NCBI RefSeq assembly: GCF_020091585.1 | Contig: NZ_CP083582.1 | Coordinates: 4,278,001-4,342,000, forward strand | From: Kovacikia minuta CCNUW1 | Lineage (GTDB): Bacteria; Cyanobacteriota; Cyanobacteriia; Leptolyngbyales; Leptolyngbyaceae | Direction: 5' to 3' | Length of the DNA: 64,000 nucleotides | Shown here: in pieces, positions 19,492 to 64,000 of the stretch | Layout of the letters: every line of letters begins with the position of its first letter | How positions within the stretch are numbered: the stretch's first letter is position 1 | Position numbers and translations under genes: made by a program | Notes under the pieces: generated by a model | Told to the model about the DNA's origin: nothing | Database searches by the model: none | Seen by the model: the letters and a program-made list of their open reading frames with translations, nothing else

Positions 19492-20709
19492 ATGAACCTC
19501 GATCGTCTCCTCAGTTCCTACGATTACAACTTACCCGCAGAGCGCATCGCCCAGATGCCTGCCGTTCCCAGGGACAGTTCCCGGCTACTCGTTGTGAAGG
19601 ATCAGACCCACCCGATCCACGCAGTTTTTCGAGATTTACCGGACCTGTTGCGACCAGGGGATTTACTTGTTTTAAACGATACCCGTGTCATTCCAGCACG
19701 ATTACATGGGTATAAACCAGGGGGATCAGCCGTTGAAATCCTGTTGCTGGAACCACAACCAGAACCCGATCGCTGGTTAGCCTTAGTTAAACCTGGTAAA
19801 CGATTAAAGCCAGGAGCGCAGATTGTGTTTGAAGGAGAGGGAGCAGAAGACATAAAGCAAGAAGTAGAGAGAGGAAGGGGAGATGCGGAGACGCAGAGAT
19901 GCGGAGACACAGAGACCTTAATTCAAAATTCAAAATTCAAAATTCAAAATTCTCCTACACCCCACACCCCACACCCCATACCCCATACCTCTCTTACAGC
20001 AACCGTTCTGGCAACCGACGCGGCAACAGGTGGGCGGATCTTGCAGTTTGATGTGCCACCCGGCGAATCGCTGGCATGCCTGATTGAACAATTGGGACAG
20101 GTGCCACTGCCGCCTTACATTACGGATACCAATGCCGAACCAGAGCAGTATCAAACTGTTTACGCCAGCCACTCTGGCGCGGTGGCAGCTCCTACTGCCG
20201 GATTGCATTTTACGCCAGAGCTATTGCAACAGTTAGAAGCACAGGGTATTAATCGGGCATTTGTAACGCTTCATGTGGGGGTTGGCACATTTCGTCCGGT
20301 TGAGACAGCGGAAATTACCGCACACCAGATGCATGCTGAGTGGGTAGATGTGCCTGCCCAAACGGTAGAACAAATTTACCAAACCAAAGCCAACGGCGGA
20401 CGGATCATTGCGGTCGGAACAACTGCTGTGCGATCGCTGGAAGCCGCTGCCCAACAGGGAACTCTGCAACCATTTCGGGGAAAAACCGAGCTGTTTATCT
20501 ACCCTGGCTACCAGTGGCAGGTTATTAATGGGCTGATTACCAATTTCCACCTACCCAAGTCCAGCTTATTGATGATGGTCAGCGCGTTAATCGGTCGCCA
20601 ACGCCTGCTCGATTTGTATCAGGTGGCGATCGAACAGCAATACCGTTTTTACTCCTTTGGGGATGCGATGTTGATTTTGCCAGAAGCGATCGTAGGTGTC
20701 ACGGGTTAG
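19492..20709 (+). CDS. queA: tRNA S-adenosylmethionine ribosyltransferase-isomerase, with in-frame repeat insert
   Basis: QueA moves the ribosyl group of SAM onto 7-aminomethyl-7-deazaguanine in tRNA to form epoxyqueuosine. Family sequences: [57 protein letters not shown], and [19 protein letters not shown] near the C-terminus. The product is about 405 residues against roughly 350 for the family. The excess is residues about 120-168, encoded by heptanucleotide repeats (peptide [11 protein letters not shown] followed by [12 protein letters not shown]), placed in the smaller inserted domain and leaving the frame intact. ATG 19492 ([12 protein letters not shown]) is preferred to an upstream TTG. 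Whether the insert disturbs activity is unknown. Confidence 0.95.
19857..19998 (+). repeat. Composite heptanucleotide repeat inside queA
   Basis: G-rich imperfect units (GATGCGGAGAC, GGAGACACAGAG) are followed by tandem AAAATTC units, then CACCCCA/CCCCATA units, all inside the queA reading frame. The same block order occurs at other sites in the window. Confidence 0.9.
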
Positions 20710-20736
20710 GTGTCAGGTGTCAGGTGTCAGAGAGAA
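20704..20736 (+). repeat. GGTGTCA heptamer array after queA
   Basis: Tandem AGGTGTC units follow the queA stop codon directly. The same heptamer recurs after the genes ending near 27932 and 53672. Confidence 0.8.
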
Positions 20737-21675: not shown

Positions 21676-23053
21676 GTTAGTGTCACGAATTTTTCGCCAC
21701 GGTTTTACGGTCATGTTTGGCATGATCACGCTCAATCACGAGGAAAAAGACAGTGAGGCAACTCGTTTCATGCGGGAATGCCCCAATTTCATCTGACTTG
21801 GTGCGAAATTCTCGAAATAGCCGCTCCAAATGATTAGTGGTGCGAATATGCCGATGCAGGTTTGGTGCAAATTGATAGAAAGTCAGGGTCAACTCTAGAT
21901 CGCGTTGAAAGACTTGGATGGCTTTGGGTTCTTGTGTTTCCCATTTGGTGATGAATTGCTCTAACCGTTGCCTTGCCTGCTCCAAAGTCTCTGCATTGTA
22001 GATTTGATAAGCCTCAGAGGCAATTTCAAATCGACGCTGCCGTTTGGCATCTTCCCGCTTCAGGGGTTGTTCCTGCTCATCGGTTTTCGGCAAATCCTCA
22101 TAACTCAAATAGCGCTCAATCCCTCGGATTTTGTGCGTGATACAGCGTTGCTGTTGGGCCTGGGGCAAGGTCTTTTTCAACGCCTTGGGCAATCCCAAAC
22201 TGCCATCACTGACCACTAATTTCACCGCATCGGCTTGCAGTCCTCGGGCGATTAAATGCTCAAACAAGGCCTCCCACTCTGCTTCTCCTTCGTCGGAGGC
22301 AATCTCATAATGCAGGATTTCATAAGACCCATCCTCCCAGACGGCTAGAACTGCCAAAATTACCCGTTCTTCGGCCTGCCGACTTTGTCGCAGATGTCCT
22401 GCCCGGTCTAGCTTAAACGCTTCTCGGGTATATTGAATCTCTACCCACACCCCATCGACGATTAATATCGCAGGGGTTTTGCCAATCGGGGCTAAGCGAC
22501 GAGTGTCTAAGTGTTGCTGAATCTGGAGGGTGACTTGGTTCACAGCACTGCGGGAAAGCACATGTCCTATGAGAAAATATAGCGCCTCTTGCAAATCTCT
22601 CAACGACAGTCCCATCACATACAAACAACACAACCAGTTGAGCAGGTTGCCTAAGCCCCGTTGGTAACGTTGGAGAATCTGCCACTCTCGTTCTGGGTTG
22701 CGTTCTCGTAATTTCGGAACTCGCAAATCCTTCACCTGGCCATACTGGGTATCGAGTCTCCGTTGAAAATACCCGGAACGTCGAGGTCGATCGTCTCCCA
22801 TTTTGGCTAGTTCTGCCTTGAGTTCCTCTTTCAGTGCGCTCTCCAAGGTGATTTTGACGGCACTGATGACGGCCTCTCTGAGGGCCTGTTCTAACGCCTC
22901 ATCCAGTTCAGGTTGAAAACTGACGGCTTTGACTCGATGGATTTGTTGTTCTCGTTGGGCTATGGTCATGGGAAGCTCCCCTCTCGATGGAGTTCCTCTA
23001 CTGTCACTGAATCTTTTTTCTCTGTCTAATGGCGAAAAATTCGTGACACTAAC
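21676..23053 (-). mobile_element. IS256-family element, copy 1, 1378 bp
   Basis: Perfect terminal inverted repeats of 24 bp, starting GTTAGTGTCACGAATTTT on the left and ending AAAATTCGTGACACTAAC on the right. Flanked by 7-bp direct repeats TTATTTG (21669-21675 and 23054-23060). It encodes one intact transposase. A same-length copy, identical wherever I compared it, lies at 49389-50766. Confidence 0.92.
21683..22969 (-). CDS. IS256 (Mutator-like) transposase, copy 1
   Basis: 428 residues starting MTIAQREQQIHRVKAVSFQP. It has the IS256/Mutator DDE pattern: ILIVDGVWVEIQYT (first Asp), KLVVSDGSLGLPKALKKTLP (second Asp), QQRCITHKIR and, near the C-terminus, NHLERLFREFRTKSDEIGAF with the catalytic Glu. 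The frame is intact, so the element may be mobile. The translation is the same as the copy at 49396. Confidence 0.92.
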   Translation of the reverse strand: MTIAQREQQIHRVKAVSFQPELDEALEQALREAVISAVKITLESALKEELKAELAKMGDDRPRRSGYFQRRLDTQYGQVKDLRVPKLRERNPEREWQILQRYQRGLGNLLNWLCCLYVMGLSLRDLQEALYFLIGHVLSRSAVNQVTLQIQQHLDTRRLAPIGKTPAILIVDGVWVEIQYTREAFKLDRAGHLRQSRQAEERVILAVLAVWEDGSYEILHYEIASDEGEAEWEALFEHLIARGLQADAVKLVVSDGSLGLPKALKKTLPQAQQQRCITHKIRGIERYLSYEDLPKTDEQEQPLKREDAKRQRRFEIASEAYQIYNAETLEQARQRLEQFITKWETQEPKAIQVFQRDLELTLTFYQFAPNLHRHIRTTNHLERLFREFRTKSDEIGAFPHETSCLTVFFLVIERDHAKHDRKTVAKNS

Positions 23054-42965: not shown

Positions 42966-44360
42966 CTAATTCAGAAAATCGCTCAAGAACTGGAGCATCA
43001 CAAATATTCCGGCTCCCAGGGCAGCGGCGATTGGAATCGTAACAACCCACGCCAACCCGACTGATCGTAACGTCCCAAAGCTGATCGCTCCCGAATTTTG
43101 AACCAACCCGATGCCAACGACACCACCCACCAGCGCATGGGAAGTGGAAACCGGCAAACCCAACCGGGATGCTACCAGGATGGTAACTGCCGTTGCCAGT
43201 TCGGCGCAAAAGCCCCCACTCGGTTGCAAGGGAATAATTCCTTCACCAATCGTGGCGATCACTTTTTTGCCCCAGACTGCAAGCCCTGCAACAATTCCGA
43301 TCCCCCCCAGAACCAGAATCCACAGCGGCACCTGAAAGCCAGCCAGGGGAACAGAATCGGTGCGATGGATGTACGCGATCGCCGCTAGCGGTGCGATCGC
43401 GTTTCCCACATCATTAGAGCCGTGAGCAAAAGCAACGAAGCAGGCACTCAGGAGTTGATAGCGGGCGAACAGAGGTTCGGGGGATGGGGCGTAGGGTGGG
43501 GGGTGTAGGGTGGGGGGTGGGGGGGAATCTTGAATTTTGAATTTTGAATTTTGAATTGAAGCTAAATAGGGAGTGGGGAGTAGGGAGTGGAGAGTAGGGA
43601 ATGAATTGTCTCCCCCATCTCCCCCACCTTCTGCCTCCTGCCCTCTGCCCTCTGCCCTCTGCCTTCCTTCCAACTGTCTCCAGCTATTCAACGTCAGCCC
43701 GATCGCTGCGATCGCTCCAATTCCCAATGAAACCGTGTGGGAGGGTAACCGTAGGGATGCAAAGAATCGCGTCTCCACCAGGGTAGGCAGAACAATCACA
43801 CCAAAGGCAGCCAGGAGAGCCACACTCAGCCAGGGAATCCATTCCTGAAGCTGGGCGATCGGATCGGTTTGGTCGAGAATCCAGCGTTTGATCTGGCTGT
43901 AGATGAGGGCTGCGATCGCTCCGCTGACGACTGGCGTAACCACCCATGTCAGAGAGATCACTCCCAGCGACTGCCAATCGACTGCCTGGGTTCCGACTGC
44001 AATGCAGGCAAATCCAGCGATCGCGCCCACCACCGCATGGGAAGAGGAAACAGGCAAACCCAAGAATGTGGCGATATTGAGCCAGACTCCACAGGCAATT
44101 AATACCGCAACCATGCCCATCAACAAAACCTGGGGAGTTTCAACAAACAGGTTTGGGTTGGCAATTTGGGTGGCGATCGTCGCAGACACCTGCTGCCCAA
44201 ACAGCACGGCTCCTGTGAACTCCAGCACACCCGCAATCACCAACGCCTGCCGCAGGGTGACTGCCTTCGACCCAACCGAGGTGCCCATCGAGTTGGCAAC
44301 ATCATTTGCACCAAGATTCCAGGCAAGATAGAAGGCAACCAGGCTGGTGAAAAATAGCAT
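42966..44360 (-). CDS. PiT-family inorganic phosphate transporter with in-frame repeat insert
   Basis: 464 residues. Both PiT signatures are present: LAWNLGANDVANSMGTSVGS in the N-terminal half and FVAFAHGSNDVGNAIAPLAA in the C-terminal half, each followed by helices with LPVSSSHA or LPVSTSHA. It is an inner-membrane symporter for phosphate. Residues about 229-298 of the central cytoplasmic loop are encoded by heptanucleotide repeats ([39 protein letters not shown]). Hydrophilic central loops vary in this family, so activity may be unaffected. There is no pst or pho gene next to it; the PstS-like gene lies 15 kb left. Confidence 0.92.
   Translation of the reverse strand: MLFFTSLVAFYLAWNLGANDVANSMGTSVGSKAVTLRQALVIAGVLEFTGAVLFGQQVSATIATQIANPNLFVETPQVLLMGMVAVLIACGVWLNIATFLGLPVSSSHAVVGAIAGFACIAVGTQAVDWQSLGVISLTWVVTPVVSGAIAALIYSQIKRWILDQTDPIAQLQEWIPWLSVALLAAFGVIVLPTLVETRFFASLRLPSHTVSLGIGAIAAIGLTLNSWRQLEGRQRAEGRGQEAEGGGDGGDNSFPTLHSLLPTPYLASIQNSKFKIQDSPPPPTLHPPPYAPSPEPLFARYQLLSACFVAFAHGSNDVGNAIAPLAAIAYIHRTDSVPLAGFQVPLWILVLGGIGIVAGLAVWGKKVIATIGEGIIPLQPSGGFCAELATAVTILVASRLGLPVSTSHALVGGVVGIGLVQNSGAISFGTLRSVGLAWVVTIPIAAALGAGIFVMLQFLSDFLN
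43475..43680 (-). repeat. Composite heptanucleotide repeat inside the PiT gene
   Basis: Reading in the gene's direction: CAGAGGG units, CTCCCCA/CTACTCC units, AAAATTC units, then CACCCCC/CACCCTA units. Block order (G-rich, AAAATTC, C-rich) and polarity relative to the gene are the same as in queA. Confidence 0.9.
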
Positions 44361-44540: not shown

Positions 44541-44774
44541 AGATGTCGTCACAACAGTTGCCAGGTTAATAGGAGCCAGGAGCCAGGGTTTTGTACAAAT
44601 TATTCAGGACTGCCATCAGAGCTTGAATAAAGAATAGCGCCATACCTTGAAGCGGTCAGCGGTCAGCAATCCGTCAATCGCTAATCGCTAATCGCTCATC
44701 CAAAAGTGTAAAGTTGTTCTCTAATCAGCCTCCCATGCACGAACGCACCTCCAACCACACGAAAATCCTTTTTC

Positions 44775-44848
44775 CCACACCCCATACCCCATACCCCACA
44801 CCCCACACCCCACACCCCACACCCCACACCCCACACCCCACACCCCAT
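44775..44848 (+). repeat. CACCCCA heptamer array upstream of holB
   Basis: About ten tandem units of CCCCACA/CCCCATA, ending 20 bp before the chosen holB start. It may replace the usual 5' leader of the gene. Confidence 0.9.
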
Positions 44849-61879: not shown

Positions 61880-62095
61880 GATTAGGGGTTAGGAGCTAGG
61901 AGTTAGCGGCTAGATAGGGGGTGGGAGACACGGGGATACGGACTTCGGCGTGAGCGCTCAGTCGAACGGGACGCGGAGAATTCAAAATTTAGAACTTAAA
62001 ACTCAAAACTCACCCCCCCCTCCATCCCTATGGTTACCACCCCACGCGATAGTTCCACCCCACACCCCACACCCCATACCCCACACCCCACACTC
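61880..62095 (+). repeat. Composite heptanucleotide array entering the tandem-ATPase gene
   Basis: TTAGGAG/CTAGGAG units, GACACGGGGATACGG, AAAATT/AAAACTC units (about 61980-62010), a C-run, then, inside the next gene, CACCCCA/CCCCATA units (about 62053-62093). The order matches the other arrays. Confidence 0.88.
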
Positions 62096-64000
62096 ATTAC
62101 CGTCCAGGGGTTGCACAAACGCTATGGCAGAGTCGCAGCGGTGCAGGGAATTGACTTTTCGGTGCAACAGGGAGAAGTGTTTGGGCTGATTGGGCCTGAC
62201 GGAGCCGGGAAGACAACCACGTTCCACATCCTGGGTGGGGTGATGGAAGCCACAATGGGAACGGTGCAGGTTTTGGGACGGGCACCCCGCGATGCCCGCT
62301 TAGGGATTGGTTATTTAACTCAGCAGTTTTCCCTTTACCTGGATTTGAGTATTGACGAAAACCTGCGTTATGTCGCGGGCTTGCGGAATGTTAGCGATCG
62401 CCTGTTTGCCGAACGCTGGGATAAATACCTGCGGTTGATGAACCTGGAGAAGTTTGGCGATCGCTTAGCGGGTCAATTGTCTGGGGGGATGAAGCAAAAG
62501 CTAGCCCTCTGTTGTGCCCTGATCTATAAACCGGAGGTGTTGCTACTAGACGAACCCACCACAGGCGTGGACCCCGTTTCCCGGCGAGAATTTTGGGATG
62601 TTTTGGCAGCCCTTGCGAGTGAAGGCGTGACGATCGTGGTTGCCACGCCCTATCTGGACGAAGCCGAACGTTGCAATCGGGTTGCGCTCATGTACAACGG
62701 ACAAATCCAGCAGATTGGCACTCCCGCCGAACTAAAAGCCAGCTTGGGATTGCATCCATTAGAGGTGAGAACTGGCGACCTGGCAGCAGTGGAACGGGTT
62801 TTGTTAGCCGCAGGTGAGAAGGCAGAAGGCAGAGGGCAGAGGGCAGAAGGGGAAGACGCGGAGAGGGGGAGACACGGGGACACGGAGAGTTCTTTAATTC
62901 AAAATTCAAAATTCAACACTCAAAATTCAACACTCAAAATTCAACACTCAAAACTGTCCCAAATTGCCGATGTTCAAACCTTCGGCGATCGCCTCGATAT
63001 TCTCGTCAGTGATGCCCAGGCTGGAGAAACCGAGGTTCGCAACCTGCTGAATCAGCACCATCTCCCCTTCGATCGGATTGACCCGATGCAACCCACCCTG
63101 GAAAACGTCTTTGTCAACCGCCTGCGCCAACAGGGATTGGAACCCCCGTTTATTCCGTTCCCGCAAACAAGGTCAGGCAGTGGGGAGTGGGAAGTAGGGA
63201 GTAGGGAAAAAGCTTCCATTCAAAACTCAAAACTTAAAACTCAAAACTCTTCTCCCACACCCCACACCCCACACCCCACACCCCCTTTTGCCATCTATGC
63301 CCGCAAACTCAACCGTGTTTTCGGCAATTTCCAGGCAGTCAAAAACGTCAATGTAGAGGTTCGTTATGGCGAAATTTTTGGGCTACTAGGTGCCAACGGA
63401 GCTGGAAAAACAACGACGATTAAAATGCTTTGTGGTTTGTTGGAAGCCAGTTCTGGTGAGATTTCTTTGGGTGGGGAAACGGGCAATTTGCGAAGTGGTA
63501 ACCTGCGGCGGCGAATTGGCTACATGAGCCAAAAATTTACACTTTATGATGACCTCAGTATTCGTCAGAATTTGGAATTTTATGCGGGAGTTTACAGCAT
63601 TCCCCAACGGTTACGACGATCAAAAATTGACTGGGTGTTGACCATCTGTGGGCTGGAAGGGCAGGAAGACCTGATTACAGGACAACTTCCCGGTGGCTGG
63701 AAACAGCGGGTGGCATTTGGCGCTTCTGTGATGCATGAACCAGAGATTCTATTTTTAGATGAACCCACTTCAGGCGTCGATCCGCTGGCAAGACGACAGT
63801 TTTGGCGACTGATTAATGATTTTGCTCGTCGAGGAACGGCTGTACTGGTCACCACTCACTACTTAGAGGAAGCGGAGCAATGTAATCGGATGAGTTTTTT
63901 GGTGGCAGGTGAAACCGTGATCGAAGGTTCTCCCAGTCAGATTAAAGCGGCTCAATCCGGCAAGTTGATGGAGATCGTGCCCGATCAAAACCAGACTGCC
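62030..64000 (+). CDS. Tandem ABC ATPase (YbhF-like), 3' partial, with in-frame repeat inserts
   Basis: Open from ATG 62030 to the window edge: 657 codons without a stop. Domain 1 has GLIGPDGAGKTTTFHILGGV, signature QLSGGMKQKLALC and Walker B VLLLDEPTTGVDPV. Domain 2 has GLLGANGAGKTTTIKML, QLPGGWKQRVAFGAS and LFLDEPTSGVDPLA. Two ATPase domains on one chain is the YbhF arrangement, an exporter working with a HlyD-type adaptor. Three repeat-derived segments interrupt it: residues about 8-22 ([12 protein letters not shown]), 262-309 (IQNSKFNTQNSTLKIQ) and 381-418 ([23 protein letters not shown]), the last exactly in the linker between the domains. All catalytic motifs remain intact. The permease genes would lie beyond the window. 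Confidence 0.9.
   Translation, partial: MVTTPRDSSTPHPTPHTPHPTLITVQGLHKRYGRVAAVQGIDFSVQQGEVFGLIGPDGAGKTTTFHILGGVMEATMGTVQVLGRAPRDARLGIGYLTQQFSLYLDLSIDENLRYVAGLRNVSDRLFAERWDKYLRLMNLEKFGDRLAGQLSGGMKQKLALCCALIYKPEVLLLDEPTTGVDPVSRREFWDVLAALASEGVTIVVATPYLDEAERCNRVALMYNGQIQQIGTPAELKASLGLHPLEVRTGDLAAVERVLLAAGEKAEGRGQRAEGEDAERGRHGDTESSLIQNSKFNTQNSTLKIQHSKLSQIADVQTFGDRLDILVSDAQAGETEVRNLLNQHHLPFDRIDPMQPTLENVFVNRLRQQGLEPPFIPFPQTRSGSGEWEVGSREKASIQNSKLKTQNSSPTPHTPHPTPPFAIYARKLNRVFGNFQAVKNVNVEVRYGEIFGLLGANGAGKTTTIKMLCGLLEASSGEISLGGETGNLRSGNLRRRIGYMSQKFTLYDDLSIRQNLEFYAGVYSIPQRLRRSKIDWVLTICGLEGQEDLITGQLPGGWKQRVAFGASVMHEPEILFLDEPTSGVDPLARRQFWRLINDFARRGTAVLVTTHYLEEAEQCNRMSFLVAGETVIEGSPSQIKAAQSGKLMEIVPDQNQTA
62815..62957 (+). 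repeat. Composite heptanucleotide repeat inside ATPase domain 1 C-terminal region
   Basis: CAGAGGG units, GACACGGGGACACGG, then AAAATTC and AACACTC units, all in frame. Same block order as in queA, but lacking the CACCCCA block. Confidence 0.9.
63174..63285 (+). repeat. Composite heptanucleotide repeat in the inter-domain linker
   Basis: GGGGAGT/GGAAGTA units, AAAACTC/AAAACTT units, then CACCCCA units, in frame between the two ATPase domains. Confidence 0.9.

Follow-up and report, generated by a model that had tools for sequence, protein, structure and literature searches.

Composite tandem-repeat cassettes lie in frame within queA and other protein genes of the cyanobacterium Kovacikia minuta CCNUW1

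Bacterial protein sequence derived from repeat DNA has already been documented for the Rickettsia palindromic elements (RPEs) and for some MITEs, according to excerpts of two reports (PMC2229807, PMC10969869). In these excerpts, RPEs are described as in-frame repeats whose open frames are fused into many unrelated conserved protein genes. They measure 105-146 or ~150 bp, form palindromic stem-loops, and encode a conserved peptide, and the copy in gmk is reported to be translated and active with a changed substrate affinity (PMC2229807, PMC10969869). The ERIC and Correia/NEMIS 107-bp MITEs, which are small and non-autonomous, likewise have open frames that are fused in frame to host genes, and the excerpted text describes the stop-free MITE form as genic and the stop-containing form as almost exclusively intergenic (PMC2229807). 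In cyanobacteria, the available sections of two reports describe heptamers as mostly intergenic or promoter-associated, alongside some intragenic ones for which the coding strand is under-represented (Nostoc, PMC4692102; PMC2670836). The TAACTGA repeats of marine Beggiatoaceae form abundant heptamer arrays with a few inside open frames; as described in the excerpt of that report, they lie mostly upstream of genes, those within genes are mainly at protein ends, and their forward reading has stops in all frames (PMC4679880). We found no report of in-frame heptamer cassettes in cyanobacterial protein genes in a literature search that covered mostly open-access papers.

The window analyzed here, a stretch of 64,000 nucleotides, includes the queA gene on the plus strand at 19492..20709 (ATG at 19492, stop codon at 20707-20709). 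Its product is a full-length match to the NCBIfam family NF001140 (E 7.8e-142, 472.3 bits versus a cut-off of 324) and also matches Pfam PF02547 (E 4.7e-133, 443.7 bits versus a cut-off of 25). The protein used in these searches (P0001, 404 aa) begins one codon after the ATG. A sequence-only reading of this DNA had proposed that queA carries an in-frame insert, and this is borne out by the single open frame that runs across the segment and by the family sequence on both of its flanks. We place the foreign segment at 19843..19992 on the plus strand, where ~50 codons have no counterpart in 25 of 29 relatives. These edges are only approximate, as loop length differs among relatives, and the relatives, with best-segment identities of 47-83%, are too distant to reveal exact insert edges or target-site duplications. 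Family sequence resumes on the 3′ side with LTATV from 19993 (LTATVLATD), and the right edge proposed earlier, 19998, overruns it by ~6 bp.

The segment begins with purine-rich DNA that has no clear unit. This is followed on the plus strand by a period-16 array at 19880..19915 (found with TRF; by eye, two octamers that are GAGATGCG/GAGACGCA-like), a 33-bp AAAATTC heptamer array at 19920..19952 (TRF unit AATTCAA, 100% match, 4.7 copies), and a CACCCCA heptamer array at 19957..19989 (TRF unit ACACCCC, 96% match). The insert had been described as consisting wholly of heptamers, but the two heptamer arrays cover only 66 of its ~150 bp, and the remainder is the period-16 array and purine-rich DNA. 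Near the end of the gene, AGGTGTC heptamers are found at 20694-20730, at and past the queA stop; in contrast to the cassette inside queA, they belong to a class of which none of 23 arrays is genic. Approximately 1 kb downstream of queA is a 428-aa ORF (21683-22969, minus strand) whose product, we presume, resembles a Mutator/IS256-type transposase.

Alignment with relatives and modeling of the fold were among the checks that had been suggested for the proposed insert. QueA was aligned with 29 of the 56 relatives that have a QueA match. The span that follows ALVKPGKRL is 94 residues long in this QueA, 45-58 residues in 25 of the 29 relatives, and 73-83 residues in the other four. As judged from this alignment, the repeat cassette is absent from most of the relatives compared, and the segment as a whole from 25 of the 29. 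This loop thus has 36-49 residues more than those of the 25 relatives. No conserved domain occupies the position across the 29 aligned relatives, and a conserved native QueA domain was ruled out accordingly. The long loops of L002 and L003 (both of genus g17), L004, and L012 are unrelated in sequence by eye and show that the site is generally tolerant of inserts. Solved QueA structures (1vky, 1yy3) align on both flanks without the segment. The best named relative among the matches listed is the QueA of Leptolyngbya sp. SIO4C1. The QueA of an uncultured Prevotellaceae MAG (L064, 2001-3236) has a repeat-like stretch at a site other than the one here. Judging from this sequence, AAAATTC-type heptamers may occur in protein genes of its non-cyanobacterial phylum as well, but L064 was found using QNSKFKIQ among the search seeds and therefore is not an independent count.

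The AlphaFold model of QueA places the segment between strands 109-113 and 166-174, which is informative at best about topology because the model, built on five sequences, is poor (mean pLDDT 49.5). Although the insert has a pLDDT of 23-34, family stretches are equally low (most of residues 331-404, blocks of 23-40), and thus the score of the insert is not evidence of disorder. The modeling therefore locates the segment between two strands but shows nothing about its disorder. In the predicted protein, the insert forms a hydrophilic and probably floppy loop.

The queA insert is one of many. The source genome (G000) comprises 8.56 Mb on 3 contigs, of which we sampled three 400-kb blocks (1.2 Mb). 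This sample contains 400 period-7 arrays versus 0 in one first-order Markov resample per block, and a chance origin of the heptamer arrays was thereby ruled out; other periods from 5 to 11 give 0-8 arrays per 400-kb block. The 400 arrays group into 261 clusters. Genes were called with our own hexamer model, which yielded 1008 genes, a set in which stop-free repeats lengthen open frames. Called genes make up 78% of the sample and wholly contain 76 of the 261 clusters, so that heptamer clusters overall are depleted in genes. Fifty-six of the 261 clusters are embedded in frame with coding signal on both flanks, and their hosts are 35 of the 1008 genes, from which we extrapolate to perhaps ~250 host genes genome-wide. 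Seven of ten hosts that were scanned (recF, pyrD, glmS, bioF, pdxA, nadE, and ileS) match an NCBIfam equivalog above its cut-off. A Pfam scan of ten hosts, including two others from the window, left one without any family.

The second host in the window is a PHO4-family phosphate transporter gene (42966..44360, minus strand; Pfam PF01384, E 2e-112), whose in-frame cassette at 43486..43663 (minus strand) consists of GGCAGAG-like, period-14, AATTCAA, and CACCCTACACCCC-like arrays in the sense direction. The third is an ABC transporter ATPase gene on the plus strand (62030..64000, continuing beyond the end of the window to C1:4342213; Pfam PF00005 in two stretches, two ABC domains). It holds two in-frame plus-strand cassettes, one at 62817..62953 with AGAAGGC, octamer-like, and AATTCAA/AACTCAA arrays, and another at 63220..63284 with TCAAAAC and then CCCACAC arrays. 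CCCACAC/CACCCCA arrays are also found at 44774-44847 and 62056-62093, near the starts of the gene at C1:4322735 and of the ABC ATPase gene, respectively. These arrays are possible N-terminal extensions; the start codons are uncertain.

Heptamer classes differ greatly in where they reside. AAAATTC arrays lie inside genes with coding flanks in 20 of 33 cases (26 of 33 over all called genes), ACACCCC arrays in 29 of 48, and AAGGCAG plus AGAGGGC arrays in 18 of 32. The share falls to 8 of 40 for AAAACTC plus AAAACTT and to 2 of 33 for AAGGATG plus AAAGGAT, and it is 0 of 27 for ACCACCT and 0 of 23 for ACACCTG (jointly 0 of 50). Thus, the earlier label of a normally intergenic repeat is not supported for queA, where two of the units, AAAATTC and ACACCCC, are of mainly genic kinds. 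The difference between AAAATTC with ACACCCC and ACCACCT with ACACCTG gives a Fisher p of 1.3e-14, where arrays within a cluster are not independent. A genic location is not explained by openness alone, since ACCACCT likewise has one open direction.

Genic cassettes share, by eye, an order of modules in which GGCAGAAG-like heptamers are followed by GAGACGCG-like octamers or another heptamer, then by AAAATTC, and then by CCCCACA. In various other genes, a period-16 (octamer) module like that of queA precedes the AAAATTC array, and an ACACCCC array is a common 3′ module, both again by eye. Copies nevertheless differ in the kind, order, and number of their modules. The AAAATTC array is 33 bp long in 11 of 20 genic cases versus 1 of 7 intergenic cases. 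The five best DNA copies of the queA cassette, at C1:6146412, 4903225, 6619775, 6066685, and 3807832, are 80-87% identical to it over 94-130 bases, and the longest covers 19860-19989 of the window. The protein search also matches all five places, in open frames that measure 429-949 aa; for the third, this applies to the reading that ranks second. Furthermore, the cassette peptide has 93 matches in G000, and 54 of the places matched, queA included, are in uninterrupted frames of at least 200 aa.

A stem-loop was considered as a defining trait and dropped, as only one of three folded copies beats its shuffles. The queA copy has no significant RNA fold (z -1.04) and the glmS copy has a DNA z of 0.10, whereas the pyrD copy folds well (DNA z -3.83) and is the only one of the three with visible terminal inverted repeats, its two ends carrying GGGGTGT and CCCCACA. 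Some intergenic clusters have the form AGGTGGT .. AAGGATG .. ACCACCT, in which the terminal arrays are complementary to each other; these may be a separate hairpin-like composite.

The orientation of genic arrays is strongly biased. AAAATTC arrays in genes are sense in 20 cases and antisense in 0 (26 to 0 over all called genes). For ACACCCC (27 versus 2) and AAGGCAG plus AGAGGGC (18 versus 0), which are stop-free both ways, "sense" denotes the majority direction. Clusters composed only of units that are open both ways are in the majority direction in 12 of 14 cases and reversed in 2. A milder bias in the same direction is observed between same-strand genes, where numbers are small: 4 to 1 for AAAATTC, 6 to 2 for ACACCCC, 5 to 0 for ACTCCCC, and 8 to 4 for AAAACTC, with none for ACACCTG (9 to 9). 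Because two of these 14 clusters are reversed and the sense bias also exists between same-strand genes, selection on the peptide may not be its sole cause, and the copying step may favor one strand.

In the antisense reading, 38 of the 56 embedded clusters have stops in all three frames. The earlier point that a stop-free 7-nt unit is open in every frame is upheld by 35 of the 56, which are stop-free in all three sense frames. Mean hydropathy is -1.33 for the inserts, -0.19 for their flanks, and +0.55 for the antisense reading, and the coding score per codon is 0.025 for the inserts versus 0.261 for the flanks. The data fit selection for open, hydrophilic readings at loops.

The preservation of reading frame was assessed independently of open frames by using the coding signal in the 120 bp on each side of a cluster. 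Frame is kept in 41 and lost in 7 of 48 cluster-and-strand cases, where chance would keep one third. Five of the seven losses are at or close to the point where two called genes of one strand meet, another (C1:4426687) separates a gene from one on the opposite strand, and the remaining one is in a gene that we take to be LarB-like, in which the Pfam AIRC domain is in the C-terminal half (C1:3773256-3774159, L113:13256-14159, minus strand). In this LarB/AIRC-like gene, the frame breaks ~45 bp beyond an in-frame AAAATTC cassette; its counterpart in another genus (G003) has a cassette at the same loop and an intact frame.

Two other genes of G000 exhibit frame breaks. The menD gene (C1:3641523-3643272, L107:1523-3272) is in two frames, with the change near C1:3642144-3642208 in a weak, sub-threshold ATCCGCT-like repeat stretch. 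Its halves match TIGR00173 at profile positions 2-182 (272 bits, above the cut-off) and 210-434 (209 bits, below it), making menD a candidate for a gene that is broken, switched, or misread at a repeat. An apolipoprotein N-acyltransferase (lnt)-like gene (C1:6015728-6017180, L085:15728-17179) has three in-frame cassettes, and its frame breaks ~340 bp past the third, with coding seeming to continue in another frame. The three breaks may be sequencing errors, decayed genes, or switches. Truncation by its cluster was also considered for a decarboxylase-like gene at C1:6041239 and was ruled out because the upstream half of this gene is in the same frame. Among 8 of the 43 tight same-strand gene pairs, chosen for genic-type units, 0 are halves of one Pfam family; two of the eight have a member with no family, and in two more the only match of one member is below the cut-off. 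The menD break had escaped this pair test.

In the seven genes compared with relatives (queA and six others), the inserts are located at length-variable loops. The six, recF, pyrD, glmS, bioF, pdxA, and nadE, were each searched in 20 genomes (19 relatives and G000), and relatives covering at least 70% of the query were aligned. Rows L144, L164, and L244 of these alignments repeat a genome that is already represented, and the bioF set contains likely paralogs (L200-L202, L204). For each of the six genes, the insert is at a loop that is short in most aligned relatives. Different repeat-like inserts, as identified by eye, are present at the recF loop in G003, G008, G011, and G012, at the pyrD loop in G003, G008, and G012, at the pdxA loop in G003 and G011, and at the nadE loop in G003, and the bioF loop of G008 reads as the peptide of the AAAATTC heptamer. 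These alignments suggest repeated gain at the same loops across genera. In 400-kb samples, embedded clusters are present in 13 of 296 genes of G003 and in 3 of 312 genes of G025, where the arrays are short. The queA cassette peptide has 11 matches in G003, 6 of them in uninterrupted frames of at least 200 aa. The suggestion that repeat DNA gives rise to new protein segments, made from queA alone, therefore holds at the level of predicted proteins for 35 of 1008 genes here and 13 of 296 in G003, and in this cyanobacterium repeat DNA seems to have supplied such segments repeatedly. The sequence-only reading had not noted that the cassettes are composites with a typical order, that their orientation is sense-only, or that other genera also bear inserts at these loops.

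Three exact tandem AAAATTC units occur at 65 forward and 44 reverse overlapping sites in the 8.56 Mb of G000 versus 28 and 13 for a reversed-letter control; with one mismatch the values are 110 and 82 versus 136 and 88, and this control is itself the AAAACTT heptamer family of G000 and hence not a clean null. Across the phylum, 29 of 386 genomes have exact matches to the three units, 23 of these belong to a single other family (f28) that is perhaps Nostoc-like, and three genomes exceed G000 in the number of matches. Six f28 genomes with 30-149 exact matches contain 0, 0, 2, 0, 0, and 1 matches to the cassette peptide, none of which is in a frame longer than 80 aa. Because arrays are abundant in f28 and yet the cassette peptide is near absent, array abundance and genic presence are separate traits.

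Given these findings, it is likely that the queA segment belongs to a family of composite tandem-repeat cassettes, restricted to this lineage, whose members have been copied into protein genes. Unit lengths of 7 and 8, not being divisible by three, take an array through all three frames and make it encode a 7- or 8-residue repeat. Read in the sense direction, a cassette is therefore usually open whatever the frame, and the sole requirement is an overall length divisible by three. Under this model, copies that shift the frame, that are inserted the wrong way (yielding stops or a hydrophobic peptide), or that land in a structured core would mostly be lost, and the survivors would reside in flexible loops as hydrophilic, probably disordered extensions. 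We infer that the inserts are translated, that the host enzymes retain their function, and that recombination or template switching copies the cassettes between genes, with slippage presumably serving only to tune array length. The frame breaks described above have led us to lower our confidence in this insertion reading very slightly.

It is more tentative to propose that the cassettes represent a class of DNA element that is specialized for coding sequence and passes between genes in sense orientation, a proposal that we currently consider somewhat doubtful. The 26 of 33 AAAATTC arrays in called genes are about equal to the 78% coding share, while we estimate that ~37% would remain in genes if insertion were random and copies in the wrong frame or direction were then lost. 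This excess lends support to a coding-specialized element beyond tolerance alone, but faster loss of intergenic copies could also produce it. If such an element does exist, it would have added disordered loops to hundreds of proteins (by extrapolation), including core enzymes.

Slippage is the usual source of change in array length, and hydrophilic hypervariable loops might have become heptamers in place by replication slippage, with no insertion at all. Consistent with this idea, host loops vary in length in relatives that have no recognizable heptamers, as in the QueA proteins of L002, L003, L004, and L012. However, the same multi-part cassette is present in unrelated genes at the 80-87% identity noted for the five best copies; its modules share an order (by eye), and 33 bp is the modal length of the AAAATTC array (11 of 20). 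Because independent slippage would not yield a shared composite, we consider an origin in place to be unlikely.

Tandem arrays are also a classical phase-variation switch, and the gain or loss of one 7-bp unit shifts the frame by one, as would be needed if these were contingency loci that switch genes. The menD gene, whose frame changes over a weak heptamer-like stretch, might be an example, and the frame breaks have caused us to raise our estimate for this explanation marginally. Against it, hosts such as recF, glmS, ileS, pyrD, and nadE are expected to be needed always, genic AAAATTC arrays are narrow in length, and none of the 8 pairs tested splits one Pfam family, with two of them uninformative and two more weak. 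Moreover, the LarB/AIRC-like and lnt-like genes break in family sequence beyond the insert. Phase variation is therefore quite improbable.

Even less probable, in our estimation, is the removal of the element after transcription or its skipping in translation, by intron, bypass, or intein-like processes. Translational bypass elements exist in other systems, core housekeeping genes bear long inserts, and excision of the repeat-like stretch of menD could reconcile its frame change. However, removal would make frame, stops, and strand irrelevant, and this is opposed by the 41 of 48 cases that keep frame and by genic arrays that are sense and hydrophilic.

An assembly or sequencing artifact is very hard to credit: repeats are error-prone and three hosts break frame at or near inserts, possibly through base-call errors, but the frame is intact at dozens of loci with different cassettes within a single assembly, and such inserts are found again, along with an intact LarB/AIRC-like gene, in the separate genome G003. 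We give as little weight to the idea that the segment is simply a native loop or domain that QueA has in this lineage, because the loops that are long in 4 of 29 relatives share no evident sequence (by eye) with one another or with this QueA, inserts have a coding signal near zero, and the segment matches cassettes in other genes.

Here, predicted protein sequence derived from repeats occurs in a cyanobacterium and on a larger apparent scale (35 of 1008 sampled genes). There is also a simple reason for its tolerance, in that 7- and 8-bp units have no closed sense frame and give hydrophilic peptides. Many of the hosts are enzymes with well-known assays, and several are expected to be essential; as a result, the cost and use of random loops is directly testable. 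For annotators, low-complexity inserts in proteins of this group need not be errors.

How these cassettes relate to the systems described previously can now be considered. As far as the excerpts of that report extend, they are unlike TAACTGA repeats in that they are interior to proteins and mostly stop-free. They resemble the ERIC and Correia/NEMIS MITEs, as portrayed in the consulted passages, in that the stop-free kind is genic and other kinds are intergenic, but they are tandem arrays rather than one element sequence, and terminal inverted repeats were seen in just one (pyrD) of the three copies folded.

The cassettes also resemble the short tandemly repeated repetitive (STRR) heptanucleotides of cyanobacteria, which Vioque (1997) reportedly found inside an RNase P RNA gene. 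Both comprise several tandem heptanucleotide copies dispersed through the genome. Compared with STRRs as characterized in the available sections of the literature, however, the present class is mainly inside protein genes (20 of 33 AAAATTC arrays and 29 of 48 ACACCCC arrays), sense, and composite. STRRs supply the units from which cassettes are built.

RPEs, as presented in the excerpted reports, share with the cassettes the in-frame insertion into many unrelated conserved genes (35 of 1008 called genes here, seven of which were compared with relatives). The cassettes differ in being modular 7-/8-bp arrays of variable make-up that are mostly open in any sense frame. The stable stem-loop of RPEs has no counterpart in queA (z -1.04) or glmS (z 0.10), with only pyrD folding, and their conserved sequence of fixed length is replaced by modules that vary between copies. 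On the basis of these comparisons, RPEs can be regarded as the closest known kind, and the cassette would seem to work like an RPE without being one.
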